Assembly (NCBI GenBank): GCA_945897335.1
Contig: CAMDFP010000008.1
Location: 1-40,726 of the forward strand
Direction of reading: 5' to 3'
DNA length: 40,726 nucleotides
Origin: Asaia bogorensis
GTDB lineage: Bacteria; Pseudomonadota; Alphaproteobacteria; SHVZ01
Each line of letters opens with the position of its first letter. Within the stretch, counting starts at the first letter, position 1. The translations under genes and the position numbers were made by a program. This document shows positions 4,872-39,447 of the stretch, piece after piece. The notes beneath the pieces are model-generated. The model had not been told where the DNA came from. It ran no database searches and saw only the letters and a program-made list of their open reading frames with translations.

Positions 4872-5014
4872 TGGCTCACGGGCGCGCGTTCTAGCGGCGC
4901 CGGCGGGTGAAGTCCATCGCTCGGGGGCATCGTTATTTAAGGATAAATGGAAAGCCGCATTGTTTTCACCCCCTGCTCCTGGTAGCTTCCGGTCGCGCAA
5001 TCCACGAGGTCTCG
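4872..5014. promoter_or_regulatory. Divergent intergenic region upstream of parA, candidate centromere/promoter
   Basis: This 143-bp gap separates the leftward TPR-GT operon from parA. It contains an AT-rich island at 4933-4948, unusual in this G+C-rich sequence, with the inverted repeat ATTTA (4935-4939) and TAAAT (4944-4948) around AGGA. In ParF/ParG-type partition systems the centromere and operator usually lie just upstream of the ATPase gene, so this is the expected place for parS. I see no convincing array of direct repeats, and I cannot assign -35/-10 boxes with confidence. Confidence 0.35.
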
Positions 5015-5668
5015 ATGGCGCTTCTCGTCGGCGTCGTTTCACAAAAGGGTGGGGTCGGCAAGAGCACAGTCGCGCGCATGGTTGCGCGCGAATATGCGCA
5101 GGCGGGATGGCGGGTGAAGATCGCCGACCTCGATATCGCCCAGGGAACGAGCTTCAACTGGCAGGCGCGCCGGCTGCAGAACAAGGTGACACCGGACGTG
5201 CCGGTCGAGCGCTTCGGCACCCTGGCACTCGCGCTCAAGATCGCTTCCCACTACGACCTCCTGGTTCTCGACGGGCCGCCGCATGCGACCGAGGGGACCC
5301 TGGCGATCGCCAACGCGGCCCAGCTCACAATATTGCCGACCGGACTCGCGCTCGACGATCTCGAACCGCAGGTGCTGCTGGCTCACGAGCTGACACGGCG
5401 CGGGGTCTCTCCGTCACGCCTTGCCTTCGTACTGGTCCGGGTCGGCGACAGCGACGTCGAACTGAACGACGCCCATGCCTATCTGACTCGCGCCGGCTAC
5501 TCGGTCCTGCCTGGATATCTTCCCGAGAAGGTCGGGTATCGGCGGGCCAGCGACGAAGGCCGGGCGGCAACCGAGACTCGCTTCCCCTCGCTCAACCAGC
5601 GCGCCGACGAGCTTGCCCAGGCGGTCGTCGACCGCCTGTCCACCATCACCCGAGAAGAGGCCGCCTGA
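5015..5668 (+). CDS. parA: ParA/ParF-type partition ATPase
   Basis: This 217-residue ATPase starts at ATG 5015, preceded by a GAGG-like site about six bases upstream. The open frame extends 36 codons further 5', but MALLVGVVSQ is the canonical ParA beginning. The deviant Walker A, KGGVGKST, is at residues 11-18, the A' region ADLDIAQGTS at 37-46, and Walker B ends in LLVLDGPP with Asp86. The protein lacks the N-terminal HTH of type Ia ParA. Its length fits the short type Ib (ParF, about 206 residues). It is followed immediately by a ribbon-helix-helix gene, the expected partner order. The likely role is ATP-driven plasmid segregation. An alternative is a ParA-like positioning protein for the glycosylation machinery encoded downstream. 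Confidence 0.9.
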   Translation: MALLVGVVSQKGGVGKSTVARMVAREYAQAGWRVKIADLDIAQGTSFNWQARRLQNKVTPDVPVERFGTLALALKIASHYDLLVLDGPPHATEGTLAIANAAQLTILPTGLALDDLEPQVLLAHELTRRGVSPSRLAFVLVRVGDSDVELNDAHAYLTRAGYSVLPGYLPEKVGYRRASDEGRAATETRFPSLNQRADELAQAVVDRLSTITREEAA

Positions 5669-13398: not shown

Positions 13399-13851
13399 AT
13401 GACTGGCAACCCTGCTCCCGGGACCGTGGAACTGATCGCGCACTACGTGCGTGACCTCTCGTTCGAGCACCCGAACGCGCCATACTCGCTGATGACGCCG
13501 CAGGATGCCGTTCCCGTCGTTGATGTGCAGGTCAGCTTTCGGCAGATCGAGGCGCACATCTTCGAGTCCTTCATCACCATCACCGCATCCGCCAAGGCCG
13601 GCGACGTCCCCGTGGCAGTCATCGAGCTGTCCTATGCCGGCACCTATCGCTTGCCGGACACTTCGGCTGAGGACCGGGAGAGGTTCCTGCTGGTCGACGC
13701 TCCTCGCGATCTCTTTCCCTTCGCCCGCGCGCTCATCGGCCTGGTGACGCAATGCGCCGGTATCCCGCCGCTGCTGATCACCGCACCTGACTTCCGGGAG
13801 AGCTATCGCATATCGAGCCAGCAGAATTTGATAAAGCAGGCGGCCGGCTGA
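13399..13851 (+). CDS. secB: SecB-family protein-export chaperone
   Basis: This is a 150-residue protein with ATG 13399 and a strong AGGAG site at 13388-13392. It shows SecB landmarks. YVRDLSFEHPNAP (16-28) matches YTKDVSFEAPNAP of E. coli. The following alternating beta strands are intact, and DLFPFARALIGLVTQCAGIPPL corresponds to the SecB helix after the beta sheet (LFPFAR 105-110). APDFRESY matches the C-terminal part. The acidic zinc-binding SecA tail region of E. coli is not seen; the end is QQNLIKQAAG. SecB tetramers hold unfolded preproteins for SecA. A second, plasmid-borne copy 28 bp upstream of a GT41 gene suggests a dedicated export client, which is inference. Confidence 0.82.
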   Translation: MTGNPAPGTVELIAHYVRDLSFEHPNAPYSLMTPQDAVPVVDVQVSFRQIEAHIFESFITITASAKAGDVPVAVIELSYAGTYRLPDTSAEDRERFLLVDAPRDLFPFARALIGLVTQCAGIPPLLITAPDFRESYRISSQQNLIKQAAG

Positions 13852-19903: not shown

Positions 19904-19919
19904 CCGGCGCCGGTTCAGC
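19899..19919. terminator. Palindrome between convergent stops, candidate bidirectional terminator
   Basis: A 12-bp perfect palindrome ACCGGCGCCGGT is flanked by GCTG and CAGC arms with one bulged base, giving a stem that spans the TGA of the GT41 gene (19901-19903) and the stop of the neuB-type gene (19915-19917). Both genes would end in the same hairpin. There is no T-tract on either strand, so intrinsic termination is unproven. Confidence 0.4.
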
Positions 19920-20961
19920 CCAGCACGTCGAAGGTGATGAGGGTGCCCCTGGCAAGGCCGACCCGCAGGCGACGGCCGATGACGAGATCCGTCAGCGCCG
20001 GTGAGAGACCGCTGCCCGGGCGCTTCGCCGCGACCGAGTCGTGATCGAGCAGGGTTCCTGCCGGCAGGTCCCGAGCCGCGACCAGGCTCTTCCGCGCGAC
20101 CAGGCCGACCTCCGGCTCGCCCGGGGCGGGTCGCTTGCGGCCATCGCCGAGCGCCGCCTCCGCCGAACGGATGTCCCGGACGAGCGATGCGAGTTCAGCC
20201 GGCTCCAGCGAGGCCCGGTGATCGGGGCCGGTGCGCTTGCGATCGAGCGTGTAGTGCTTCTCCAGCACGGTGGCGCCGAGGGTGGCGGCGGCGACGGCGA
20301 CCGCGGTTCCAAGCGTATGGTCCGAGTATCCCACCGGCACCCGATAGGCGCGGGCCAGGGTGTCCATCGCCCGGAGATTGGCCGTGGCCGCTTCGGCGGG
20401 GTACTGGCTGGTGCAGTGGAGCAGGGCGAAGGGTGCCGCTTCGGCCTCGATCACCCGCACCGCGGCGTCGACCTCGCCCAGGGTGCTGTTGCCGGTCGAG
20501 ACGATCATCGGCCGTTTGTGCCGCGCCATCTGGCGGAGGAACGGCAGGTTGATGATCTCCTGCGAGGGCGACTTGAACGCCAGGACCCCGAGCGCGGCGA
20601 GGAAATCGAGACTCGGCGGATCGAACGGAGTCGAGAGGAAGACCATGCCGCGTTGCTCGCAATGCGCCTTGAGCCGCGCATGGGCATCGCGCGGCAGTTC
20701 AAGCTTCTTCAACATGGCGTGCTGGCTCTCGGCACCGCCGGTGGTTTCGATCTGGTAGGCGGCCTTCGGCGCGTCGGTCGTGATCAGGGCGTCGGTCTCG
20801 AAGGTCTGGAACTTGACCGCATCGGCGCCCGCATCGGCGGCCACATCGACGAGCCTATGCGCGACCTCGACGTCTCCGTCATGGTTCACGCCCGCTTCGG
20901 CGATGACGAAGCATGGCTGTTTCTCGCCGACGACCCGCTCTCCGATACGAAAGGTGCTCAT
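19915..20961 (-). CDS. neuB: Sialic/legionaminic acid synthase (NeuB family)
   Basis: This is a 348-residue protein from ATG 20961, with GAGGA just upstream. The open frame continuing to 21606 is a shadow of the divergent gene. NeuB enzymes condense phosphoenolpyruvate with an N-acyl-mannosamine-type sugar to make a nonulosonic acid. Motifs: AEAGVNHDGD (21-30), AVKFQTF (48-54), SDHT with His215 and EKHYTLD with His236, the metal ligand positions of Neisseria NeuB, GPDHRASLEP (245-254), and a C-terminal SAF/antifreeze-like domain (about 285-348) with KRPGSG and Arg314. Sialate and legionaminate synthases cannot be told apart here. No epimerase (neuC) or CMP-sugar synthetase (neuA) is nearby, so it must rely on genes elsewhere. 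Confidence 0.92.
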   Translation of the reverse strand: MSTFRIGERVVGEKQPCFVIAEAGVNHDGDVEVAHRLVDVAADAGADAVKFQTFETDALITTDAPKAAYQIETTGGAESQHAMLKKLELPRDAHARLKAHCEQRGMVFLSTPFDPPSLDFLAALGVLAFKSPSQEIINLPFLRQMARHKRPMIVSTGNSTLGEVDAAVRVIEAEAAPFALLHCTSQYPAEAATANLRAMDTLARAYRVPVGYSDHTLGTAVAVAAATLGATVLEKHYTLDRKRTGPDHRASLEPAELASLVRDIRSAEAALGDGRKRPAPGEPEVGLVARKSLVAARDLPAGTLLDHDSVAAKRPGSGLSPALTDLVIGRRLRVGLARGTLITFDVLG

Positions 20962-21096
20962 GGTGTCCTCAATGGAAGTCGGCGCGCCGGCGGCCGGATC
21001 GGAAGAAGATGCCACACAAGGATATCCGGGGTCGCCCCGCCCGCGGAGAGGCGCCGCCTTGCGTCCCCTCGTCGTCGCGATTAAACCAGCGCCCGC

Positions 21097-23085
21097 ATGA
21101 CGAACGACAGTCTCCGCGGCGCCGCGGCGGTTCCCGATATCGACTCGATCGTCGTCGCCTTGCAGCGCGGGGCGGTCGCCGAAGCCGCTCGTTCGATCCG
21201 CGGCCTTCTGGCGGCCGATCCCCCCAACTGGCTCGCCTGGCATCTCGCCGGCCTCGTCTCCACCGCCGACGGGCCGCCGCCCCTGGCTCCCTTCCTCCGT
21301 TCGGTCGGCCTTGCGCCCGATCGGGGAGAACTCTGGGCCAGCCTTGCTGCGGCACTGGAGAACCGCCAGGAGCGCGGCCCCGCGGTCCGAGCCGCACGGC
21401 GCGCCCTGGTCCTTTCCCCGGCGATCCCCGAAGCGATGATCAACTTCGGCGTCACCTTGAAGGAGGTCGGCGACCTGCCGGCCGCCGGTGCCTGGCTCGA
21501 CCGGGCCGGTGTTCTCGCCTCGGGCAATCCAATCGTCCTCAACAACCGGGCCTTGGTCCATCTGGCGCTGGGTCAGCTCGAACCCGCCGCCGCCGCCTTG
21601 CGCCACGCCGTCACCGCGGCACCCACCTATGCAGATGCCCTGCTCAACCTCGCCATCGTCGAACGGCGCTCGAGCCGGCCTTCGGTAGCCCTGGCCGCGA
21701 TTATCGTCGCGCTCGCTCTCTCTCCGCGTGATTCAGCCGCGCTCGCCGAGCTCGGCACGATCCTCGTCACTCTCGGCGATGCGCCGGGCGGGACGGCCTG
21801 GCTCAGGCGAGCGCTCGCCGCCGATCCGGTCAACACAGCTGCGATGGCGAGCTACCTCGGAGCCCTGTCCTATCTCCCCGAGGTTCCCGAGTCCGAGCGT
21901 CGCGCCGCCTACGGCCATGCCGCACGCCAGGCGAGGTCGTCCGCGGAGGTCGCGCCACGCCCGCTGACCACCACGGCCCGGGGCCCCGGCTACAGGCTCA
22001 CGGTGGCCTACGTGTCGGCGAAGTGGCATTCCCACCCGATGACGCAGCAGCTCGCGAGCCTGCTCGCTCATCACGATCGAAGTCGCGTTCGGACCATTGC
22101 CTATGCCGATCCGGGACATCGCGACGCCATGACCGGGCAAATGCGCTCGCTGGTCGAAGAGTGGAGGGAGACCGGGGGGCGGCCCGATCGCGATGTTGCC
22201 GAGATGATCCGTGCCGACGGCGTCGATGTGGTGGTGTTCCTGGCTCTCCACGAGGACGGTTCGCGGCGCTCCCTGCCATGTCTGCGTGCGGCGCCCGTTC
22301 AGGTCAGCCTGCACGACATTGCGACCAGCGGCCTCGAAGAAATCGATGCCTGGATCACCGATCCTGTCCTGCATCCGGCCGGCAGCAGCGAGTGGTTCGC
22401 AGAACCGCTCGTCCGCGTGCCGTCGCTCTTCCTGTTTTCCGCGCTGGATGACGGCGCGTCGCCTCCGATGCCGGGACCTGCGTCGAGAACGATCGCCTTC
22501 GCCTCATTCAACAATCCCGCCAAGCTGTCGACAGCGACCTTGGCCGCCTGGGCCGACATACTCCGCCGCACGCCCGGAGCCACCCTGACCCTCAAGTATC
22601 AGAGCCTCTTCGGCGATCCCGCGGTGGCGGGTCGCGTATGTGCGGTCATGGCGAGTCACGGCATCGCCGCCGACCGCCTTCGGCTCGAAACCGGGGCGTT
22701 GTCCCGATCTGCCCACCACGCTGTCGTCGCGGCTGCGGATATCGTGCTGGACCCGTTCCCCTACAACGGCAATACGGCGACGATCGAAGCCTTGTGGATG
22801 GGCACGCCGGTGGTGAGCCTCGCGGGGACACGGTTCCTCGGCCGTATGGGCGCCGACATCCTGGCGCGAGCGGGGCTCGGCGATCTGGTTGCCCAGTCAG
22901 CGGAGGACTACGTCCGGATCGCTGTCGCTCTCGCCGGAGATCCCTCGCGCCGACAGACGCTACGTTCAACTCTGCGAAATGATGTGAGGCAGTCGACCCT
23001 GTTCGATGGTCCTGGCTACGCCCGCAGCATCGAGGCGGCCTATGTCGATCTTGCGCGTCGCGTCGACGTGCTTCCCCCGGCATGA
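21097..23085 (+). CDS. TPR + SPINDLY-type O-linked GlcNAc transferase-like protein (GT41)
   Basis: This is a 662-residue protein from ATG 21097, divergent from the neuB-type gene across 135 bp. TPR helices cover about 17-270 (e.g. INFGVTLKEVGDLPAAGAW, LNNRALVHLALGQLEPAA). The catalytic part begins RLTVAYVSAKW, unusual because the other copies mostly have S[A/G]DL here. His313 (SHPMTQQ), Lys476 (FNNPAKLS) and Asp552 (VLDPFPYNG) are kept. The loop usually GHTxxNR is LALHEDGSRR, and the acceptor-side motif is LHDIATSGL, placing it in the HD-type subtype with 8514, 23082 and 34234. Its stop overlaps the next start as ATGA. The donor pocket looks intact, while the acceptor side has probably diverged. 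Confidence 0.9.
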   Translation: MTNDSLRGAAAVPDIDSIVVALQRGAVAEAARSIRGLLAADPPNWLAWHLAGLVSTADGPPPLAPFLRSVGLAPDRGELWASLAAALENRQERGPAVRAARRALVLSPAIPEAMINFGVTLKEVGDLPAAGAWLDRAGVLASGNPIVLNNRALVHLALGQLEPAAAALRHAVTAAPTYADALLNLAIVERRSSRPSVALAAIIVALALSPRDSAALAELGTILVTLGDAPGGTAWLRRALAADPVNTAAMASYLGALSYLPEVPESERRAAYGHAARQARSSAEVAPRPLTTTARGPGYRLTVAYVSAKWHSHPMTQQLASLLAHHDRSRVRTIAYADPGHRDAMTGQMRSLVEEWRETGGRPDRDVAEMIRADGVDVVVFLALHEDGSRRSLPCLRAAPVQVSLHDIATSGLEEIDAWITDPVLHPAGSSEWFAEPLVRVPSLFLFSALDDGASPPMPGPASRTIAFASFNNPAKLSTATLAAWADILRRTPGATLTLKYQSLFGDPAVAGRVCAVMASHGIAADRLRLETGALSRSAHHAVVAAADIVLDPFPYNGNTATIEALWMGTPVVSLAGTRFLGRMGADILARAGLGDLVAQSAEDYVRIAVALAGDPSRRQTLRSTLRNDVRQSTLFDGPGYARSIEAAYVDLARRVDVLPPA

Positions 23086-29319: not shown

Positions 29320-31182
29320 TCACTCTCCAAGCCAGACCTCGATCTCGTGGCGAAGCTTTTCCGAAGGCGTGACCCGTCCGCGTTCGAGCTTGCTGAAATG
29401 ACCCTGGCGGATCCCGAGCCGCTGCGCTGCCTCCTCCTGGGAGAGGCCGAGCATCCGGCGATGGTGACGCACCCGTTCCGCCATCTCTCCCGATGGCGAT
29501 GCATCCACGAGAGACATCGGTTCGGCATCGACGGATCGGATGTAGTAGTCGCGGATCATCTGCGGCGCCTCGATGCCGATCTCGGCATCGAGCCACTGCG
29601 CGCCCCATCCATGGCGATTCAGGCCGTCGAGCGGCTTGCCGACATAGTGCCAGGTGGTGATCACGCCATCCGCCTTCATCGTCGTCAGCGCCTTCTCCAG
29701 GCGGGTCCGCGTCTTGGCCGGATAGCGCTCGTTCAGCGCCTCGCCGACGGCATCCAGCAGGGTGCGGACCGAGAAGCGCTGGGTGAACTGGCCGTTGCGC
29801 GCGTGAGCCTGCCACTGCCAGCTCGTGTAGCGCGTCAGGCGTTTCTCCCATTTGCGCCGGACCGGGTCGTATTGCAGGGCGCGCTGGAACAGGAGCCCGG
29901 TCTGACGGCCGGCGCCGAAGAGGAAGGCGGCGAAGGCCTTGCCCGGCCGGAAGATGAAGCGCTCGACATCGAGATAGCCGTCGAGGCGGACCTGGCCCAT
30001 GCGATCGGTGATGATGAAGGGCCGACTCTGCAGGGTCTTGAGCGTCGAGGAGCGCTGGCGCCGGCCATCGCCGCCGCCCTCGTAGACCCGGACCTCGCCG
30101 ATGTCGATCCAGAGATTCTGGATGTGGGAGAGCGCCTTCAGCATCTCCGCGCGCTGCTCGGGCTCGTAGCCGCCTCGTCGGCCTTGGCCGCCGCGCTTGG
30201 GCTTGAGACCGCGCATGCCCAGGATCTCGTCGACATCCGCGACCGCTGCATCGTCGGGTGCGCGAGCCTGGCTGAGATAGAGGGCGCAGAGCGCATCGAG
30301 GCCGTCGGCATCGAGATCCGAGAGCTCGCTCTGCTGGCGCCACATGGTGGTGACCCAGGCCTGCAGGCGCGATCCCGGCAGCAGCGGCTCGGAGTCCATG
30401 ACCGCGGGCCGAAGCTGCGCGTAGCCGCTGGCGCCGTTGCGCTTGAGCGACGCCGTCGGCCAGGGCGTGCCCTCGACCTTGCGGAAGGTGTTCTTGTAGA
30501 GCGCCTCGCGGATGTCGTGGAAGTGTCCCGAGGCCAGGACGATCATGGTGCCGGGCGGGATCTGCGGCAGCGCCTGCTCGGCTGCCGCCGCTTCGGGCGA
30601 GCGCAGCAGGGCCTCGAGGTAGCCCGCCGGACGGTTCGGCGGGAGCAGGAGCTCGACCAGGGCGCCGGCCGCATCCTCGGCATGGATGGAAACGAGATAA
30701 GCGAGGCGCCGAGCCAGGGTTTCGGTGCTCTCGGCCCGGTCCGCCGCCGCCCAGGCGGACACCGAGACGGCGAGCCAGCGCGCCACCTTGTCGAGAGCCG
30801 CCGGCTCGGCCAGGAAGTTTTCAGCGAGCCGGCAGGCGATGCTGAAACAGGCTTCCTTCGAGATCTTCGACGATGCCTTGGCCGGAAGCGCTTCGCTGAT
30901 CCGCCGGGCAATGACGGCCCCGATCAGCTGGGTCACCGCGTCCCGATCGCTGACAAGGCTGACGCGGATCGCGCCTGCGCGCTGTTCCTGGGTCTGTCCT
31001 TCGAGGTCCGGGTGCCTGATGGTGGCGAGGCTGTGCTCCAGGCGGCTTTCGATCGGGGATCCGAGCCAGCTCGCCCGCACGACGAAGGCCTTGTCGTCTC
31101 CGGGCTGAAGCGGGACCGCGAGTTCCGCGAGCCCCGTGAGTGGCAGGGGCAGCTGGGGAATGGGCTTGCGACGGCTGGGCAT
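29320..31182 (-). CDS. Large plasmid protein with C-terminal XRE-type HTH, candidate replication or copy-control factor
   Basis: This is a 620-residue protein from ATG 31182, with GGAGAGG four bases upstream. Residues 567-620 form a clear XRE/Cro-type helix-turn-helix (MAERVRHHRRMLGLSQEEAA, QRLGIRQGHFSKLERGRVTP). The first 560 residues belong to no family I can name with confidence. They include a basic linker (KPKRGGQGRRGG, about 330-341) and a winged-helix-like region around 470-515 (FSVRTLLDAVGEAL, LEKALTTMKADGVITTWHYV). The gene diverges from repA across the iteron region, so a role in replication, copy control or origin regulation is likely but inferred. The long plus-strand open frame over it is an antisense shadow. 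Confidence 0.7.
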   Translation of the reverse strand: MPSRRKPIPQLPLPLTGLAELAVPLQPGDDKAFVVRASWLGSPIESRLEHSLATIRHPDLEGQTQEQRAGAIRVSLVSDRDAVTQLIGAVIARRISEALPAKASSKISKEACFSIACRLAENFLAEPAALDKVARWLAVSVSAWAAADRAESTETLARRLAYLVSIHAEDAAGALVELLLPPNRPAGYLEALLRSPEAAAAEQALPQIPPGTMIVLASGHFHDIREALYKNTFRKVEGTPWPTASLKRNGASGYAQLRPAVMDSEPLLPGSRLQAWVTTMWRQQSELSDLDADGLDALCALYLSQARAPDDAAVADVDEILGMRGLKPKRGGQGRRGGYEPEQRAEMLKALSHIQNLWIDIGEVRVYEGGGDGRRQRSSTLKTLQSRPFIITDRMGQVRLDGYLDVERFIFRPGKAFAAFLFGAGRQTGLLFQRALQYDPVRRKWEKRLTRYTSWQWQAHARNGQFTQRFSVRTLLDAVGEALNERYPAKTRTRLEKALTTMKADGVITTWHYVGKPLDGLNRHGWGAQWLDAEIGIEAPQMIRDYYIRSVDAEPMSLVDASPSGEMAERVRHHRRMLGLSQEEAAQRLGIRQGHFSKLERGRVTPSEKLRHEIEVWLGE

Positions 31183-31293
31183 GACCTCTCCGATGGCCTG
31201 GAAAGCGTATCGCAGGCCGCGGCGGTATAGCTCAGTTAAGTTTCGTCTGCCGCCACTTTGCCGCCACCCGAGGGCGGAGCGGGGGTTCCCCGG

Positions 31294-31692
31294 CCACGCT
31301 GCATCTGTGATGTGTGACCGCGACGGGATGCATTAAGGTTTGGTTTTTGGGTTGTTGGCGCGGGCTTCGCGTTGCGGGGCATTATATAGTTATATCAAGT
31401 AGATGCTGTTGATTTAGTTACCTTTCGGTGCTGATCTTCGGGCTGTCGGCGTTTCCACGCTGCATCTGTGATGCATGAATATCTTTTGCTCCCTCAGGGA
31501 TGAGGGCGGGGGCGCGGGAGGCCGAGATATCCCGTTTAATCCCCGCTGTATCTGTGAGGGCGGGGGCGGGGGCGGGAGTATCCGCGCTGCATGTGTGAGG
31601 GGGTGGGGGGTGATGCACGCTGCATCTCTGAGGGATGTGCGCTGCATCGGTGATTTAGGGCGGGTGATGCACGCTGCATCGGTGAGGCAAGA
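31294..31692 (+). repeat. Seven RepA iterons, core CGCTGCATCTGTGA
   Basis: Direct copies lie at 31294-31317, 31455-31478, 31541-31564, 31582-31605, 31615-31638, 31637-31660 and 31669-31692. The first two share CCACGCTGCATCTGTGATG exactly. The others vary at the T after GCATC, e.g. GCATCGGTGA in copies 6 and 7 and GCATCTCTGA in copy 5. Start-to-start distances among the last five are 41, 33, 22 and 32 bp, mostly near whole helical turns, so bound proteins would sit on roughly one face. The unequal gaps and non-palindromic spacers rule out a CRISPR array. The adjacent RepA is the obvious binder. Confidence 0.85.
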
Positions 31693-31849
31693 CCTATAGT
31701 AAGACCTCTATCTCCTCTATCGGGGCGGGGGAGGGGGATTAGAGGTTCAGCGTGGGTTAAGGGGGATAGATCGCGCCCGGCTGAGGGCCCGTCGCGCTGT
31801 ATTCCAGGCCGCTGGTCCGATGGCGGGGTTTGCTTGGCCGAAATCGCGC

Positions 31850-31869
31850 CGATCACAGAAGCAGCGTGG
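31850..31869 (-). promoter_or_regulatory. Inverted iteron copy upstream of repA, candidate autoregulatory operator
   Basis: Read on the minus strand this is CCACGCTGCTTCTGTGATC, matching iteron 1 at all but one position over its first 18 bases. It is the only copy in the opposite orientation and the one nearest repA, about 155 bp before the start. In many iteron plasmids an inverted or half iteron pair overlaps the rep promoter and is bound by Rep dimers to repress it. Confidence 0.6.
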
Positions 31870-32023
31870 ACAAGCAAGTTTAGCGGGGACAGGCTCGTGT
31901 GCGCCGGACATCGGCCTTGGAGGGCTCCGGGGCCGCCGATAGTGTCGGTCCGTTCATCCGGCGCCCCGCCGCTTCATCGCTACACCGTCGCCCCTTCACC
32001 CTCCAGTCAGGACGATTTCGAGA

Positions 32024-33031
32024 GTGGCCGAGATACACGAGCAGCTGCTGCTGAGGGGCTTCGAGCGGATGGCGGAGGAGGCGCGCAGGCGCAACGCGTC
32101 GCGCCAGGAGCTGAAGCGCCTCGGCGCCGCGCGCTCGATCATGTCGGCCTACGAGGACGACATCTCGTACCTGCATGCGGGGTTCTGCCTGGCGGGGCTG
32201 CCGCACATGCGGCCCGAGGACGACGAGGCGCGCTGGGTCAGGTCCAACGGCAAGTTCCACTTGATCATCACCCCGGGAGCGGTGGTGACCGAGGGGCGGG
32301 TCAAGGTCGTGGGCGTGCCTTACGGGGCCAAGGCCCGCCTGATCCTGGTCTATCTGATGAGCGAGGGCGTCAAGTCGCGGAACGTGTCTCTCGGCAAGTC
32401 GATGACGGCGTGGATCCGGAGTTTGGGCATGCCGGTGACGGGGGGCCCCAGGGGCTCGATCCGGCACATCCGCGAACAGGCGCTTCGCATCTCGCGCTGC
32501 CAGTTCACCTTCCAGTGGGATGATTTCGAGGCGCAGGAGTCGCTGGTCCAGGACCAGCACCTGGTCGAGGGCGGCCTGCATCTGTGGGCGGTGGAAGAGG
32601 GCGGGATCTTCCCCAAGGAGATCACGCTGACCTCGCAGTTCTACGATCATCTGCGCGACCATGCGGTGCCGCTGGATCCGCGCGCCATCGCCTATCTCAA
32701 GGGTTCGCCCTTGTGCCTGGATGTCTATGTCTGGCTGGCGCATCGGCTGCCGCGCCTGGAGCGCCCGCTGGAGATCCCGTGGGGCGTCCTGATGCAGCAG
32801 TTCGGGGCCGCCTATCGCTCGACCGCGGCCTTCGCCTACCGGATGAAGGCGATCCTGCCGGACGTGCTGGCGGTCTATGACGGGGCCCGGGTCGAGGCCT
32901 CGGGCCGGGGTCTGGCGATCCTGCCCTCGCCGCCGGCGGTGCCGTCGAGCCGGGTCTTCCTCGGGGGATCCAAGGGATCATCGAAGGCGGCGCCGAAGCT
33001 GCGCCTGCTCGCGGGCAAGCGGCGCGCCTGA
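32024..33031 (+). CDS. repA: RepA-family plasmid replication initiator
   Basis: This is a 335-residue protein from GTG 32024; ATG at residue 16 is an alternative because the ribosome-binding site is weak. The pattern is that of plasmid RepA proteins: AGFCLAGLPHMRPEDDEARW, VGVPYGAKARLILVYLMSE, VSLGKSMTAWIRSLGMPVTG, IREQALRISRCQFTFQWDD, then LDPRAIAYLKGSPLCLDVYV and WLAHRLPRLERP. The C-terminus has winged-helix-like sequence and a basic tail. It binds iterons, melts the origin and recruits the host helicase. The seven iterons upstream fit, and the single inverted copy suggests self-repression. The gene stands alone; no repB or repC is present. Confidence 0.9.
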   Translation: MAEIHEQLLLRGFERMAEEARRRNASRQELKRLGAARSIMSAYEDDISYLHAGFCLAGLPHMRPEDDEARWVRSNGKFHLIITPGAVVTEGRVKVVGVPYGAKARLILVYLMSEGVKSRNVSLGKSMTAWIRSLGMPVTGGPRGSIRHIREQALRISRCQFTFQWDDFEAQESLVQDQHLVEGGLHLWAVEEGGIFPKEITLTSQFYDHLRDHAVPLDPRAIAYLKGSPLCLDVYVWLAHRLPRLERPLEIPWGVLMQQFGAAYRSTAAFAYRMKAILPDVLAVYDGARVEASGRGLAILPSPPAVPSSRVFLGGSKGSSKAAPKLRLLAGKRRA

Positions 33032-33109: not shown

Positions 33110-34237
33110 ATGATGCGCATCGCTTTCCTCGATCGGCTGCCCTGGGACTACCGGGTGGACACGCCCTGGCACCGCCCGCTCGGCGGCTCGCAGTCGGCGC
33201 TCTGCTATCTGGCCTCGGCACTCGCGGCCCTCGGCCACGAGGTCCGCCTGGCGACGATGACCCGGAGCCCTGCCCGCATCGACGGCGTCGACTGCGTCAA
33301 TGCCGCAGACGGCGGCCTCGGATTGTTCGAGGGGGCCGAGGTCGCGGTCGTCCTCAACGATCCGGAGCCTGAGATCGCCCGCGGGCTCCGCGCCCGGATC
33401 GGCCCTAAGGGATTGCTCGTGCTCTGGACCCAGCACGACGTCGACCAGCCGGCCATGGCGAGCTACGCCGCGCCCGAGGCCCGGGCCCTCTTCGACCGCG
33501 TCGTCTTCGTCAGCGACTGGCAGCGCCGGGCCTATCGCCGGAGCTTCGGGCCCGGACCCGCCGACATCGTGCTCGGCAATGCGATCTCGCCCTCCGTCGG
33601 CGCGATCTTCGGCGAAGACGAGAGCCTCGCCGCCGCCAAGCCGGGCCCGCCGACGCTGATCTACACCTCGACGCCCTTCCGCGGCCTCGACGTGCTGCTC
33701 GATGCCTTCCCGCTGATCCGCTCCCGGCTGCCGGACGCGCGCCTCGTCGTGCATTCGAGTCTCGGCGTCTATCAGGTCGATGAATCCGAGGACGCCTATC
33801 GTCCGCTCTACGAGCGCTGCCGCGCACTTGCCGGCGTCGACTATCGGGGCGGGGTCGCCCAGCCCCTGCTCGCGGCCGCGCTCAAGGCGGCGCATTGCCT
33901 GGCATACCCCTCGACCTTCCCCGAGACCTTCTGCACCTCGGTGCTGGAGGCGATGGCGGCGGGCTGCCTTGCCGTGGTCGGCGATCTCGGCGCGCTGGCC
34001 GAGACCACGCGGGGCCTGGCCGAGCTGGTGCCCCTTCCATCCGATCCTGCCGATCCGGATCCCGCCGGCTATGCGCATCGCTTCGCCGAGCGCGTCGTCC
34101 GTGCGCTGGCCGATCCCGATCTGGCCCCGCGTCTCGAGCGCCAGCGACGCCTGCTTCGAGAGACCGCCACCTGGCCGGTGAGGGCGCGCTCCTGGAGCCT
34201 CTGGCTCGAGGCGGCGCTCGCCGGCCGCCGCCCGTGA
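33110..34237 (+). CDS. Group-1-type glycosyltransferase (GT4 family)
   Basis: This is a 375-residue GT-B protein from ATG 33110 (a second ATG follows at once). The N-terminal domain has the donor-loop PLGGSQSAL with Gly25-Gly26, and RVVFVSDWQRRAYR in mid-protein. The C-terminal domain opens with LIYTSTPFRGLDVLLDAFP and carries the E-x7-E motif of retaining GT4 enzymes (Glu272 and Glu280 in YPSTFPETFCTSVLEAMAAG). There is no signal peptide, so it is cytoplasmic or membrane-peripheral. It is the only glycosyltransferase here without TPRs. It is first in a five-gene operon and its stop overlaps the next start as GTGA. It may extend a glycan after the first sugar is attached by a GT41 enzyme; that is inference. 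Confidence 0.88.
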   Translation: MMRIAFLDRLPWDYRVDTPWHRPLGGSQSALCYLASALAALGHEVRLATMTRSPARIDGVDCVNAADGGLGLFEGAEVAVVLNDPEPEIARGLRARIGPKGLLVLWTQHDVDQPAMASYAAPEARALFDRVVFVSDWQRRAYRRSFGPGPADIVLGNAISPSVGAIFGEDESLAAAKPGPPTLIYTSTPFRGLDVLLDAFPLIRSRLPDARLVVHSSLGVYQVDESEDAYRPLYERCRALAGVDYRGGVAQPLLAAALKAAHCLAYPSTFPETFCTSVLEAMAAGCLAVVGDLGALAETTRGLAELVPLPSDPADPDPAGYAHRFAERVVRALADPDLAPRLERQRRLLRETATWPVRARSWSLWLEAALAGRRP

Positions 34238-34272
34238 CGATGATGCCCGTGACGATGATGCCGGTGACGATG
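34234..34272 (+). repeat. 15-bp tandem repeat of start codons at a translation start
   Basis: GTGACGATGATGCCC, then GTGACGATGATGCCG, then a partial third copy GTGACGATG begin exactly at the overlapping stop/start. Each unit holds one GTG and two ATG codons in the reading frame (residues V/M-T-M-M-P), so there are eight candidate in-frame starts within 39 bp. Confidence 0.9.
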
Positions 34273-35985
34273 GCATCGACGACGACGGAGATCGTCCTGC
34301 TCTGCCGGCGCGACCTGGCGCTGATGCCGGCACTGGCGCCGGCGCTGGCCGAGCTCGGACGGCTGACCGGGACCGCCGCCTGGCTGGTCCGGGCGCTCGG
34401 CATCGATCCGGCGCTCGTCTCCGCCCTGATCAATCTCGGCGCGTTCAGGTGCGGAGCGGGCGATGCCGGGGGTGCTGCCGTCCCGCTCGCGCGCGCGCTG
34501 GCGCTGGCTCCCGACGAGCCGTCGGCCTGGTTCAACCAGGGAGTCGCCCGCGGCCGTACGCCCGGGGCCGCCGTAGCCTATCGCCGCTCGCTGGCGCTGG
34601 CACCGTCCGCCGACGCCGCCACATATCTCGCCCATGTGCTGCGGGACGGCGATCCGCTGATCGCCGCGATCCCCGTCTACCGCCAGGCGCTGGCGCTGGC
34701 GCCGTCGGATCCCCTCCTCTTCGAGTGCCTCGCCTTCTGCCGGAGCTACGATCCGCAAGCGACGAGCCCGGAGATCTTCAGCCTCAAGCGGCGCTGGGCC
34801 GCCCTGGTGGCGCGCCCGCCCTTGCCGGCGCCGGCCCTGCCGCGCGATCCGGCCGAACCGGATCCCGATCGGCGGCTCCGCGTCGCCTATCTCTCGGCCG
34901 ACCTCTACGACCATCCGGTCGGACGCAACCTGGTCGGCCTGCTCGAGCATCACGACCGGAACGCGGTCGAGGTCTGCCTCTACGATCTCCGCGAAGGCAA
35001 TGATGCGATCGCGCGCCGCCTGAGGGCCGCTGCCTCCCTCCGGCGCGCCGCAGCCGGGCTCGACGACCGGGCTCTGGCCGAGACCATCCGCTCGGACCGC
35101 ATCGACCTCCTGGTCCTGCTCGCCGGCCACACGCCGTTCAACCGGCTGGCTCTTGCGGACTTCCGATCGGCGCCGGTGCAGGTGGCGATGCACGACTTCA
35201 CCACCAGCGGACTTCTCTCGATCGATGCCGTCCTCGGCGATCGGACGCTGATGCCGGAGGGAGGCGAGGAGGGCTTCGTCGAGACGGTGATCCGGCTTCC
35301 CACCTTCTATCTGCACGAGCCGCTGCCCGACGTACCGATCCCGTCGCGTCCCGCGCTCGGGCCCGGCGAGCCGCTGGTGCTCGTCTCCGCCAACAACCCG
35401 GCCAAGCTCAACGACCGCGTCATCGACCTCTGGGGACGCATCCTGCTCGGCCTGCCGCGCGCCCGCCTTCTCCTCAAATATCGCGACCGCTTCGGCGATC
35501 CCCTGGTCCGGCGGCGCTGGCTCGCCCGGCTCGCTCTCTCAAGCGTCGGCGCCGACCGTCTTCTCTTTCATACCGGCGACGATGACCTGGCCTCTCACCT
35601 CGCCGTCGTCGGCGGCGCCGACCTGGCGCTCGATCCCTTTCCCTTCAACGGCTGCACCACCAGCTACGAGGCGCTCTGGATGGGCGTGCCCGTGGTGACG
35701 CTGGTGGGCAAACGCTTCGTCGGGCGGGCAGGGGCGGCGATGGTGCAGCCGCTCGGGCTCTCCGACCTCGCCGTCGCCGACGAGGACGCCTATGTCGCCG
35801 CCGCCCTCGGCCTCGCCGCCGATCCCGCGCGCCGCGCCCGCCTCAGGGCCGAGCTCAGGCCTCGTCTCAGATCCTCGGCGCTGCTGGATGCGGGCGCTCA
35901 CGCGACCTCGGTCGAGGCCGCCTATCGCCGGCTCTGGCGGGACTGGTGCGGGCGGAAAACGAAAGAACGAAATCCCGTTCGATGA
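34234..35985 (+). CDS. TPR + SPINDLY-type O-linked GlcNAc transferase-like protein (GT41), short TPR region
   Basis: This is a 583-residue protein from GTG 34234, which overlaps the GT4 stop as GTGA. The frame extends to 33895 only as a shadow. The first 15 codons are a tandem repeat carrying several in-frame start codons. TPR-like repeats cover about 30-175, shorter than in the other GT41 copies. The catalytic region has RVAYLSADL, His227 (YDHPVGRN), LLAGHTPFNR, MHDFTTSGL, Lys391 (ANNPAKLN) and Asp467 (ALDPFPFNG), then TSYEALWMGVPV. It is very like 8514-10415, with long matching stretches around the His and the HDxTTSG motif. All nucleotide-sugar residues are retained. It is coupled to the next GT41 gene by ATGA. 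Confidence 0.92.
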   Translation: MTMMPVTMMPVTMASTTTEIVLLCRRDLALMPALAPALAELGRLTGTAAWLVRALGIDPALVSALINLGAFRCGAGDAGGAAVPLARALALAPDEPSAWFNQGVARGRTPGAAVAYRRSLALAPSADAATYLAHVLRDGDPLIAAIPVYRQALALAPSDPLLFECLAFCRSYDPQATSPEIFSLKRRWAALVARPPLPAPALPRDPAEPDPDRRLRVAYLSADLYDHPVGRNLVGLLEHHDRNAVEVCLYDLREGNDAIARRLRAAASLRRAAAGLDDRALAETIRSDRIDLLVLLAGHTPFNRLALADFRSAPVQVAMHDFTTSGLLSIDAVLGDRTLMPEGGEEGFVETVIRLPTFYLHEPLPDVPIPSRPALGPGEPLVLVSANNPAKLNDRVIDLWGRILLGLPRARLLLKYRDRFGDPLVRRRWLARLALSSVGADRLLFHTGDDDLASHLAVVGGADLALDPFPFNGCTTSYEALWMGVPVVTLVGKRFVGRAGAAMVQPLGLSDLAVADEDAYVAAALGLAADPARRARLRAELRPRLRSSALLDAGAHATSVEAAYRRLWRDWCGRKTKERNPVR

Positions 35986-38069
35986 CCCAGCCGGACCTCC
36001 TCGCCCACGCCCAGGCTCATCTGGCGGCCGGCCGCCTCGCCGAGGCGGAAGCGGCGTTCCGGCGGATCCTCGAGGTCCCTCCCGACTTAGGGCCGCTCCG
36101 CGGACAGGCGCTCTGGGGCCTCGGCCTCGTCGCCGCCCGCGCCGGCCGTCCCGACCTCGCCTTGGGCCTGCTCGAGGAAGCGGTGCGGATCCTTCCGCGA
36201 GAAGCCGAGATCCATCTCCATCTCGGCCAGGCCCGTCTCGAGGCCGGCGCCTCGGATCCCTCGCGCCCGGATCTTGTTCGCCCGGATCTTGCCCGTCTGG
36301 CTCTTGCCCGGGCGCTGGCGCTGGTGCCGGGCGAGCCGGCCATCCTCGAAGCCCTCGGACGTGCCACTGCCGCCCGCACCGCCATCGCCCGCCTCTGGCA
36401 GGAACGCGCGCTGGCGCTGGCGCCGGAGTTTCTCGCCGCCCGTCTCAATCTCGCCGTCCTTCTCGCCGGCGAGGGCGCTCCCGATCGCGCGCGGCGCGAG
36501 ATCGCATGTGCGCTGGCACTCGCCCCCGAGGCAGCCTCCGCCTGGTTCAATCTCGGCGTCGTCCTCGGGCACACCGAAGAGGCCTGCACCGCCTTCGAAC
36601 GCACGCTGGCCCTCGATCCGGGCGCGCTCGATGCCGCCGTCAACCGCTCGCGCCTGCTTCTGTCCACGCGGCCGAGCCGGGCCGAGCCGGCGCTCCGGCG
36701 CGTCGCGGCGCTTTTCCCTTCGACCCCGATGGCGCTCACCCAGCTCGCGCATCTCGCCCGGGTGTCGGCCCTCGGCGAGCCCGCCGCCCGCCTCTTCGCC
36801 CGCGCGCATGCCGCCGATGCCGCGAACCCGGCGCTCCACAGCAACTGGCTGCAGCAGCTCGCCTACGATCCGGATCTGAAGCCCGAGACCGGTCTCGCCC
36901 GTCATCGCGACTGGGCCCGCCGTCATGCCGCAAAACCACGGCTCGCCGATCCAGATCCCGTTGATCTTGATCCGGCGCGGCGGCTTCGCATCGGCTATGT
37001 CTCGGCCGATCTCGCCCGCCATCCGGTCGGCATCTTCCTCCTGCCGGCGCTCCGCCATCGCGACCCGCGCTCGCAGGAGATCGTCTGCTATTCCGGCACG
37101 CGCCCGCCCGATGCCTGGACCGACCGCCTCCGAGCATCCGCCGATCGCTGGGTCGAGGCGGCCGACCTCGACGACGACGCGCTGGAAGACCGCATCCGCA
37201 CCGACCGCATCGACATCCTGGTCGACCTCTCCGGCCACACCGCCGGCAACCGGCTTCCGGTCTTCGCCCGCCGGCCGGCGCCGCTGCAGGCCGCCTGGAT
37301 CGGCTATCCGGGCTCGACCGGCCTCGAGGAGATCGACGTCGTGATCGCCGATCTGGTGCAAGCGCCGCCCGCGCATGAGCGCTGGTTCGTCGAGCGCATC
37401 GAGCGGCTGGATCCAGGCTACCTCGCCTATGAACCGCCGGACGATGCGCCGGATGTCGCCCCGCTGCCGGCGCTGGCGAGAGGGCACGTCACCTTCGGCA
37501 GCCTCAACAACCCGGCCAAGCTCAATCCGAAGATCCTTCGCCTGTGGGCCGGCGTGCTTGCCGCCGTGCCGGGCGCGCGCCTGCTCCTCGCCTGGCCCGG
37601 CTTCGCCGACCCCAGGGTCGAAGAGCGGCTCCGCGCGCTCGCCGCCGGCTCCGGCATCGCCCCCGATCGCCTCGAGCTCCGCCCCGGCGGCGCGCCCGCC
37701 GCGTTCCTCGCCCGCTACGGCGAGATCGACGTCGCGCTCGATCCCCGGCCCTATTCCGGCGGCCTCACCACGCTGGAGGCGCTGTGGATGGGCGTGCCCG
37801 TCGTCACCTGCCCCGACGAGCGCTTCGCCGGCCGTCACGCCGCGAGCCATCTGACGCAGGCCGGGCTCGCCGACTGGATCGTGCCGGACGAGGCCGCCTA
37901 TGTCGCCCGCGCCGCCGCCGCCGCCGCCGATCTCGATCGTTTGAGCCGGCTTCGCCAGGGCCTGCGCGCGCAGCTCTCGGCCTCCTCGCTTCTGGACGGC
38001 GCCGGCTTCGCCCGCCGGCTCGATGCTCTCTGGCGCCGGATCTGGCGCCGGCGCTCTGCGGGCCTTTGA
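35982..38069 (+). CDS. TPR + SPINDLY-type O-linked GlcNAc transferase-like protein (GT41)
   Basis: This is a 695-residue protein from ATG 35982, coupled to the previous gene by ATGA (the frame to 35946 is a shadow). TPR repeats cover about 1-310, with clear units AAARLNLAVLLAGEGAPDRAR-like and AWFNLGVVLGHTEEACTAF. The catalytic region contains RIGYVSADL, His347 (ARHPVGI), LSGHTAGNR, WIGYPGSTGL, Lys513 (LNNPAKLN) and Asp587 in ALDPRPYSG, then LTTLEALWMGVPV. The WIGYPGSTG motif is close to that of eukaryotic OGT (WLGYPGTSG), so this is the nearest to canonical OGT in the window. Only two bases separate its stop (TGA 38067-38069) from the next start, as TGAGATG. Confidence 0.91.
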   Translation: MTQPDLLAHAQAHLAAGRLAEAEAAFRRILEVPPDLGPLRGQALWGLGLVAARAGRPDLALGLLEEAVRILPREAEIHLHLGQARLEAGASDPSRPDLVRPDLARLALARALALVPGEPAILEALGRATAARTAIARLWQERALALAPEFLAARLNLAVLLAGEGAPDRARREIACALALAPEAASAWFNLGVVLGHTEEACTAFERTLALDPGALDAAVNRSRLLLSTRPSRAEPALRRVAALFPSTPMALTQLAHLARVSALGEPAARLFARAHAADAANPALHSNWLQQLAYDPDLKPETGLARHRDWARRHAAKPRLADPDPVDLDPARRLRIGYVSADLARHPVGIFLLPALRHRDPRSQEIVCYSGTRPPDAWTDRLRASADRWVEAADLDDDALEDRIRTDRIDILVDLSGHTAGNRLPVFARRPAPLQAAWIGYPGSTGLEEIDVVIADLVQAPPAHERWFVERIERLDPGYLAYEPPDDAPDVAPLPALARGHVTFGSLNNPAKLNPKILRLWAGVLAAVPGARLLLAWPGFADPRVEERLRALAAGSGIAPDRLELRPGGAPAAFLARYGEIDVALDPRPYSGGLTTLEALWMGVPVVTCPDERFAGRHAASHLTQAGLADWIVPDEAAYVARAAAAAADLDRLSRLRQGLRAQLSASSLLDGAGFARRLDALWRRIWRRRSAGL

Positions 38070-38070
38070 G

Positions 38071-39447
38071 ATGAGCGCCGATCTCCGCCGCCGTCTCATT
38101 CGGGATCCGCAAGCGGCGGAGGCCTGGCGGTCCCTCGCTTTCGCCTTCGCTGCCGGCAACGAGATCGCGGCCGCGGCCGCGATCTTCTCTCGTCTCGCGG
38201 CTCTTCGTCCCGAAGCGCTCGATCTCTCCAACCTGGCCGAGCTCCGCCGCGCCGCCGGCCTTGGCGCCGCCGCGCGCTCGGCCCGCCGCGCCCTCGCCCT
38301 CGATCCGGCGCTGGCCGCCGCCCACAACAATCGCGGCAACATCGTCCTTAAGGAAGATCGTCCCGCCGAAGGCGAGGCCGCCTTCCGCCGGGCGCTGGCA
38401 CTCCAGCCGGGGTTTCGCGACGCCGCCTACAACCTCGCCGCCGCCCGCAACGACCAGGGCGATCCGCCGGCCGCCATCGCGGTCTACGAACGCGTGCTCG
38501 CAACGGCGCCGGATTTCTTCCAGGCGCAGTGGAACCGGGCGCTGGCGCTTCTCGCCGCCGGCCGCTGGCAGGAGGGCTGGCAGGCGCACGAGATCCGGCG
38601 CGCCCATCCGCTGCTGAAGCCCCGCGACTTCGAGATCCCCGACTGGACCGGCGAGCCGCTCGCCGGGCGCCGCATCCTCGTGGCATCCGAGCAGGGCCAT
38701 GGCGACAGCATCCAGTTCCTGCGCTTCGTGCCGGAGCTCGCGCGCCTGGGCGGCCGCGTCGTCCTCGACCTGCCGGCGCCGCTGCTGCGTCTCGCCCAGG
38801 TGCTCCCCGGCGTCGAGCGGCTGATCGAAAGCGGGACGCCGCCGGGCGAAGTCGATCTCACCGTCCCGCTGATGAGCCTGCCGCTGAGACTTGGGCTCGG
38901 CGAGAGGGCGGCAGCTCCCGTGGCCCCTTATCTCCTCCCGCCTCCTCTGGTCCCGCCGGCGATCATCCGCGACGGCCGGCCGCTGGTGGGGCTGGTCTGG
39001 GCCGGAAACCCGGGGAACAAATCCGATGCCCGGCGCTCGCTCACCCTCGAGCGTCTCGGCCCGGTGCTGGCGCCGGCGGGGCTGCGCTTCGTCTCGCTGC
39101 AGTTCGGGCCCCGCGCCGCCGACATTGCCTCGTCCGGTCTCGAGGGGCGGATCGAGACGCTGGACGATCTCGGCGACTTCGCCACCACCGCCGCCATCGC
39201 CGCGTCTCTCGATCTCGTCGTCACCGTCGACACCGCGATGGCGCATCTCGCCGGCGCCAGCGGCAACGAGGCCTGGGTGCTGCTGGCCCATGCGCCGGAC
39301 TGGCGCTGGGGGATGAGGGGCGAGACCACGTCCTGGTATCCCTCGCTCCGTCTCTTCCGCCAACCCGGCCCCGGCGACTGGAACGGAGTCGTGCACGCCC
39401 TCGTCCGGGCGCTGGCCGAGCGCTTCCCCGGGGCCGCCCGGAGATGA
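38071..39447 (+). CDS. TPR-containing GT9-like glycosyltransferase
   Basis: This is a 458-residue protein from ATG 38071; the frame to 38023 is a shadow of the preceding gene. TPR-like repeats fill about 5-175 (HNNRGNIVLKEDRPAEG, YNLAAARNDQGDPPAA, WNRALALLAAGRW). The linker is degenerate (WQAHEIRRAHP) compared with the usual YEWRW. The transferase fold has SEQGHGDSIQFLRFVP (206-221; His replaces the usual Leu or Phe), VPLMSLP, GLVWAGNP (307-314), VDTAMAHLAGASGNEAW (386-402), PDWRWG and SWYPSLRLFRQ. It is complete. It is coupled by ATGA to the next gene, with which it shares long matching segments, so the two look like tandem duplicates. Confidence 0.9.
   Translation: MSADLRRRLIRDPQAAEAWRSLAFAFAAGNEIAAAAAIFSRLAALRPEALDLSNLAELRRAAGLGAAARSARRALALDPALAAAHNNRGNIVLKEDRPAEGEAAFRRALALQPGFRDAAYNLAAARNDQGDPPAAIAVYERVLATAPDFFQAQWNRALALLAAGRWQEGWQAHEIRRAHPLLKPRDFEIPDWTGEPLAGRRILVASEQGHGDSIQFLRFVPELARLGGRVVLDLPAPLLRLAQVLPGVERLIESGTPPGEVDLTVPLMSLPLRLGLGERAAAPVAPYLLPPPLVPPAIIRDGRPLVGLVWAGNPGNKSDARRSLTLERLGPVLAPAGLRFVSLQFGPRAADIASSGLEGRIETLDDLGDFATTAAIAASLDLVVTVDTAMAHLAGASGNEAWVLLAHAPDWRWGMRGETTSWYPSLRLFRQPGPGDWNGVVHALVRALAERFPGAARR

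Follow-up and report, generated by a model that had tools for sequence, protein, structure and literature searches.

Does the short gap in front of repA in this Asaia bogorensis contig hold a plasmid replication origin, and which of its repeats would the initiator use? The stretch of DNA analyzed here (hereafter the window) comprises 40,726 nucleotides of contig C8, from base 1, in a 5.0 Mb assembly. The segment at 31183-32023 is exactly the 841-bp gap between the start of a divergent helix-turn-helix (HTH) gene at 31182 and the GTG start codon of repA at 32024 (Table 1), and the initial annotation had presented it as an iteron origin at which RepA binds and represses its own gene. No terminal overlap was found in the contig; because the contig is not closed, we infer its plasmid status rather than observe it. 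The 620-aa HTH protein was encoded in four of the six same-genus genomes, with 59-100% identity, and adjoined iteron arrays in three of them.

Iterons and opposite sites upstream of repA

The 841-bp gap contains eight iterons with ≤2 mismatches, where a Markov model predicts 0.004 (maximum 1 in 1000), and no other iteron cluster (≤1 mismatch) was found elsewhere in the 5.0 Mb assembly. The seven direct iterons of the initial annotation are all present, as is the nearly perfect inverted copy that it placed at 31850-31869, which we located at 31853-31866 with one mismatch. However, this copy had been described as single, and at least two sites face the opposite way. The second, at 31746-31755 (GGTTCAGCGTGGGTTAA), had gone unlisted and gave the highest score of the whole 40.7 kb with a matrix built from six relatives, the window and its close relative L034 being excluded from the construction; we refer to it as the anchor iteron. 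Matrix matches at 31429 and 31648 were dropped for lacking the CAGCG core, as was one near 31795 (minus strand) for its absence from L034. An iteron look-alike with three mismatches (GCCTGCATCTGTGG) lies inside repA at 32574-32587, with the same bases in L034; because these conserved bases are coding, the resemblance is probably due to chance.

Table 1. Features of the repA region and related array segments. Positions are those of the window unless a locus is named.
Feature	Position	Strand	Sequence or basis
Divergent 620-aa protein, C-terminal HTH (XRE-like)	29320..31182	-	Pfam HTH_31; borders the array
Direct iteron 1	31297..31310	+	CGCTGCATCTGTGA; clade core TGCAGCG on - strand; kept in L034
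Candidate DNA-unwinding element	31380..31429		A+T-rich island between iterons 1 and 2
Direct iteron 2	31458..31471	+	CGCTGCATCTGTGA; kept in L034
Direct iteron 3	31544..31557	+	CGCTGTATCTGTGA; kept in L034
Direct iteron 4	31585..31598	+	CGCTGCATGTGTGA; kept in L034
Direct iteron 5	31618..31631	+	CGCTGCATCTCTGA; kept in L034
Direct iteron 6	31640..31653	+	CGCTGCATCGGTGA; kept in L034
Direct iteron 7	31672..31685	+	CGCTGCATCGGTGA; kept in L034
Conserved TATAG element	31690..31720		CCTATAGTAAGACCTCTATCT; kept in L034; paired TATAGG boxes in clade relatives
Anchor iteron, opposite to the seven	31737..31760	+	GATTAGAGGTTCAGCGTGGGTTAA; top window site, 15.7 bits; kept in L034
Inverted copy of the initial annotation	31850..31875	+	GATCACAGAAGCAGCGTGGACAAGC; block nearly identical in L034
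Degenerate iteron-like site	31879..31893	+	TTTAGCGGGGACAGG; identical in L034; weak matrix score, 6.1
Tentative repA promoter	31917..31948	+	TTGGAG N15 GATAGT and small palindrome CCGATAGTGTCGG
repA, 335-aa RepA_C (PF04796) initiator, GTG start	32024..33031	+	Pfam and predicted fold
Second-array segments in G004 and G005	L082 104-773; L101 4494-4956; L083 1-149; L103 4585-4733		

The direct iterons are spaced by 161, 86, 41, 33, 22, and 32 bp, the last four intervals corresponding to 3.9, 3.1, 2.1, and 3.05 helical turns at 10.5 bp per turn. The last five direct sites accordingly showed coherent helical phase (R = 0.81, p ~0.03), and a similar tendency was obtained for the seven sites of L034 (R = 0.79, p = 0.007). 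The spacing near whole helix turns that had been described for the repA side is therefore right, on modest evidence.

In L034, which encodes a RepA 89% identical to that of the window, the order and orientation of all seven direct sites are unchanged, and both opposite sites are present, one of them after a CCTATAG block. The A+T-rich island is conserved too, as is the TATAG block, and the rest of the gap has diverged; likewise, the block GATCACAG..CAGCGTGGACAAGCAAGTTTAGCGGGGACAGG was retained while the DNA on its flanks diverged.

The position of the divergent HTH gene suggests another reading, in which the repeats would be operators of this gene rather than RepA sites: it starts at the array edge and accompanies the array in L034 and in two same-genus genomes (G004 and G005). 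However, iterons of the same kind adjoin repA with no HTH gene beside them in the replicons L012-L015 and in the same-genus genome G002, and the distribution of the iteron agrees with the RepA tree, as described below. We therefore regard the operator reading as very improbable.

The RepA_C initiator and its clade

RepA matched the RepA_C family (PF04796) with an E-value of 2e-34 and a score of 119.7 bits, the cut-off being 26. Because a sequence search returned no solved structural relative, we predicted the fold from 20 sequences (pLDDT 86.4, pTM 0.85). In structure comparison, the model matched best to domains 2-3, and only these, of RctB of Vibrio chromosome 2 (5tbf; Z 13.1), followed by RepE54 (Z ~12; iteron-bound RepE54, Z 12.0), after which Z fell to ~5. 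RepA is thus predicted to adopt the two-winged-helix fold of iteron-binding initiators. RctB is itself an iteron binder, although it differs from RepA in its larger size and in controlling a secondary chromosome. With mini-F oriS/RepE (1rep) and other Rep_3 iteron plasmids, the locus has in common this predicted fold, the inverted sites near the rep gene, and the spacing of direct iterons close to whole helix turns. In contrast, RepE belongs to a different family with a different iteron and has no sequence relation to RepA (~6% identity in the structural alignment).

To place the initiator among its relatives, we constructed a phylogenetic tree of 31 RepA proteins with FastTree, in which 13 proteins including that of the window formed a group with a support of 0.993. 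Its closest plasmid relatives, at ~41-46% identity, come from Roseomonas, Azospirillum, Tistrella, and Kozakia (L012-L015, L036); these replicons belong to the same clade and likewise carry TCAGCG-core iterons upstream of repA and a TATAGG-type box with an anchor iteron. The motif [TG]CAGCG was enriched upstream of repA in 10 of the 13 clade members (p ≤0.003); L049 and L050 carry one-base variants of it, and L051 carries another repeat. In the window, seven such sites precede repA against a null mean of 1.2, a count reached in 0 of 300 shuffles. The motif alone is an imperfect clade marker because enrichment also occurs in a Methylobacterium locus more distant in identity (L045; modest, p = 0.003) and, weakly, in L060 and L061 (p = 0.013 and 0.033).

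Read on the minus strand, the iteron of the window is TCACAGATGCAGCG, and the clade core is TTCAGCG. The same-genus genome G002 has TCACA(A/G)ATTCAGCG, and the core in more distant clade members is TCAGCG; the window and L034 differ from L012-L015 and L036 in that their upstream direct sites read TGCAGCG. The iteron had been called unrecognized, and indeed neither the 841-bp region, searched as DNA against 72,556 plasmids, nor the 18-bp iteron pattern, searched in viral contigs, gave a match. However, comparing its core with those of other RepA plasmids, a check that had been proposed at the outset, identified it as a variant of an iteron common to the clade.

The co-variation of iteron and initiator also bears on whether the repeats could be a parS-like centromere. 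A ParA-type ATPase is indeed encoded in the window, at 4907-5668, with no recognized ParB beside it. However, this gene lies 26 kb from the repeats, no ParB-like partner was recognized, and from relative to relative the iterons change along with RepA. A centromere is thus an extremely improbable explanation, and we retain the RepA sites as our reading of the array.

A candidate melting region and other conserved elements

An easily melted A+T-rich region, as expected of an iteron theta origin, was found inside the array. Calculated from nearest-neighbor energies, the least stable 30- and 50-bp segments of the whole window both start at 31380, in the island between the first two iterons, and the equivalent island is also the least stable stretch in L034, L082, and L101. 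The TATAG box at 31690 ranks as the fifth least stable 30-bp segment, within the lowest 0.1%, and is a candidate for a second melting region or a promoter element. Orientation maps showed that the iterons converge on this box in the window, L034, L015, and L048.

Paired TATAGG boxes, an anchor iteron, and GTGGATAA occurred together within 80 bp in 8 of the 13 clade members only, so that this strict pattern is not strictly clade-defining, and in none of the 21 more distant RepA_C loci. It was absent from L034, L015, L016, L048, and the window; the window has the anchor and a degenerate version of the TATAG box. GTGGATAA resembles a DnaA box when the opposite strand is read and may represent one. 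Beside the anchor it is recognizable in L012-L014, where a DnaA box adjoins the anchor iteron, and in L036, whereas it is degenerate in the window. No consensus DnaA box (≤1 mismatch) was found in the window or L034.

A scan for consensus sigma-70 promoters found none, and for this reason our assignment of TTGGAG N15 GATAGT as the repA promoter is a weak one, although both elements are kept in L034.

A probable RepA-dependent origin and a possible second array

In two same-genus genomes, a further iteron array occurs in inverted orientation. Contig C36 of G004 (34,260 bp) carries two arrays in inverted orientation that are 86% identical over 400 bp. The head array lies beside the HTH gene, and the contig ends where repA would begin; the tail array includes an anchor and precedes a hydrolase-like gene, with no repA. 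The ends of contigs C38 and C67 of G005 share 149 identical array bases in inverted orientation, both contigs ending inside the array. In both genomes, the sequence immediately preceding the second array matches the left end of the window, and the array begins ~675 bp beyond the match to base 1 of the window. We sought a second array in the window's own assembly and did not find one, the contig stopping before the expected place. Contig C88 of G002 carries two iterons (CGCTGAATCTGTGA; L102 2500 and 2675) without repA, ahead of an aminotransferase-like gene, which we regard as a remnant array.

The DNA at 1216-28000 and 33110-39447 is dense in TPR and glycosyltransferase genes (GT41, GT9, and GT4-like), among which a NeuB-type sialic acid synthase is encoded at 19915-21606. 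This gene block resembles a cluster for surface or flagellin glycosylation, which the replicon would carry. A SecB-family protein (PF02556) is encoded inside it at 13399-13851.

We tentatively suggest that the plasmid carries two inverted arrays, separated by ~32 kb and lying on either side of the glycosylation block, of which only one is accompanied by repA, although this arrangement is rather doubtful and the same-genus genomes are many-contig drafts in which chimerism is possible. The second array could be a second origin, a handcuffing partner in cis, or one of the recombination sites of an invertible segment. If it truly exists here, it would bear on the copy control or rearrangement of iteron plasmids.

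An array without repA in G004 would also fit a role in titration, and it is conceivable that the array of the window only titrates RepA as a control or incompatibility locus, the working origin lying elsewhere, for example downstream of repA. In SGI1, whose RepA also belongs to the RepA_C family, iteron binding was demonstrated by EMSA and the requirement of oriV for replication by deletion (PMC7826253, PMC7433901), and this oriV lies downstream of rep (PMC7433901). SGI1 and the IncN2/N3 plasmids resemble the window in having an initiator of the same Pfam family, a cluster of direct repeats beside rep, and an A+T-rich oriV region (PMC7826253, PMC7433901), but differ in the downstream position of oriV and in their repeat, GGGGGHRATTATGCGY, which is unrelated. 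The IncN-type RepA is only about a third identical to that of the window, and the RepA_C loci of the IncN plasmids L044 and L047 have GTACATCCGACCCC-type repeats downstream of repA, unlike the clade. The upstream position is therefore not universal, with repeats downstream of rep in SGI1 and IncN, and this counts against an upstream origin. However, no comparable repeat family was seen downstream of repA in the window, and the array holds the stretch of lowest stability in the window as well as the conserved TATAG box, neither of which a pure titration site would need. We thus consider a purely titrating array unlikely.

The reading we favor, and consider very likely, is that 31290-32023 is a theta-type iteron oriV with the repA control region of an alphaproteobacterial plasmid or chromid, serving RepA-dependent opening and copy control. 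The protein family, the predicted fold, co-conservation, and DNA stability lend good support to the initial proposal of a RepA-binding iteron origin beside repA. RepA would bind the seven direct and at least two opposite sites, all with a CAGCG core and converging on the TATAG box. Once bound, RepA would melt either the island at 31380-31429 or the TATAG box, giving the host replisome a place to load. Given the SGI1 precedent together with the present evidence, RepA binding and opening of the island provide the best account of the locus.

Autorepression, handcuffing, and incompatibility are known from iteron plasmids in general. By analogy, autorepression and incompatibility are plausible here, the opposite sites close to repA (31746, 31853, and 31879) being the likeliest autoregulatory operators, and the iterons may titrate and handcuff RepA and thereby set the copy number.

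Overall, the locus is very probably a real RepA_C iteron origin. It is a sound if rather typical representative of a known plasmid type, and its iteron is clade-specific. In the literature searched, we found no described origin for these alphaproteobacterial RepA plasmids. For this group, which includes the large replicons of Azospirillum and Tistrella, the present analysis defines a specific probable origin and a clade-wide consensus of the iteron, so that host-vector construction and incompatibility tests become possible. In addition, the pair formed by the window and L034 suggests how an initiator and its iteron change together.
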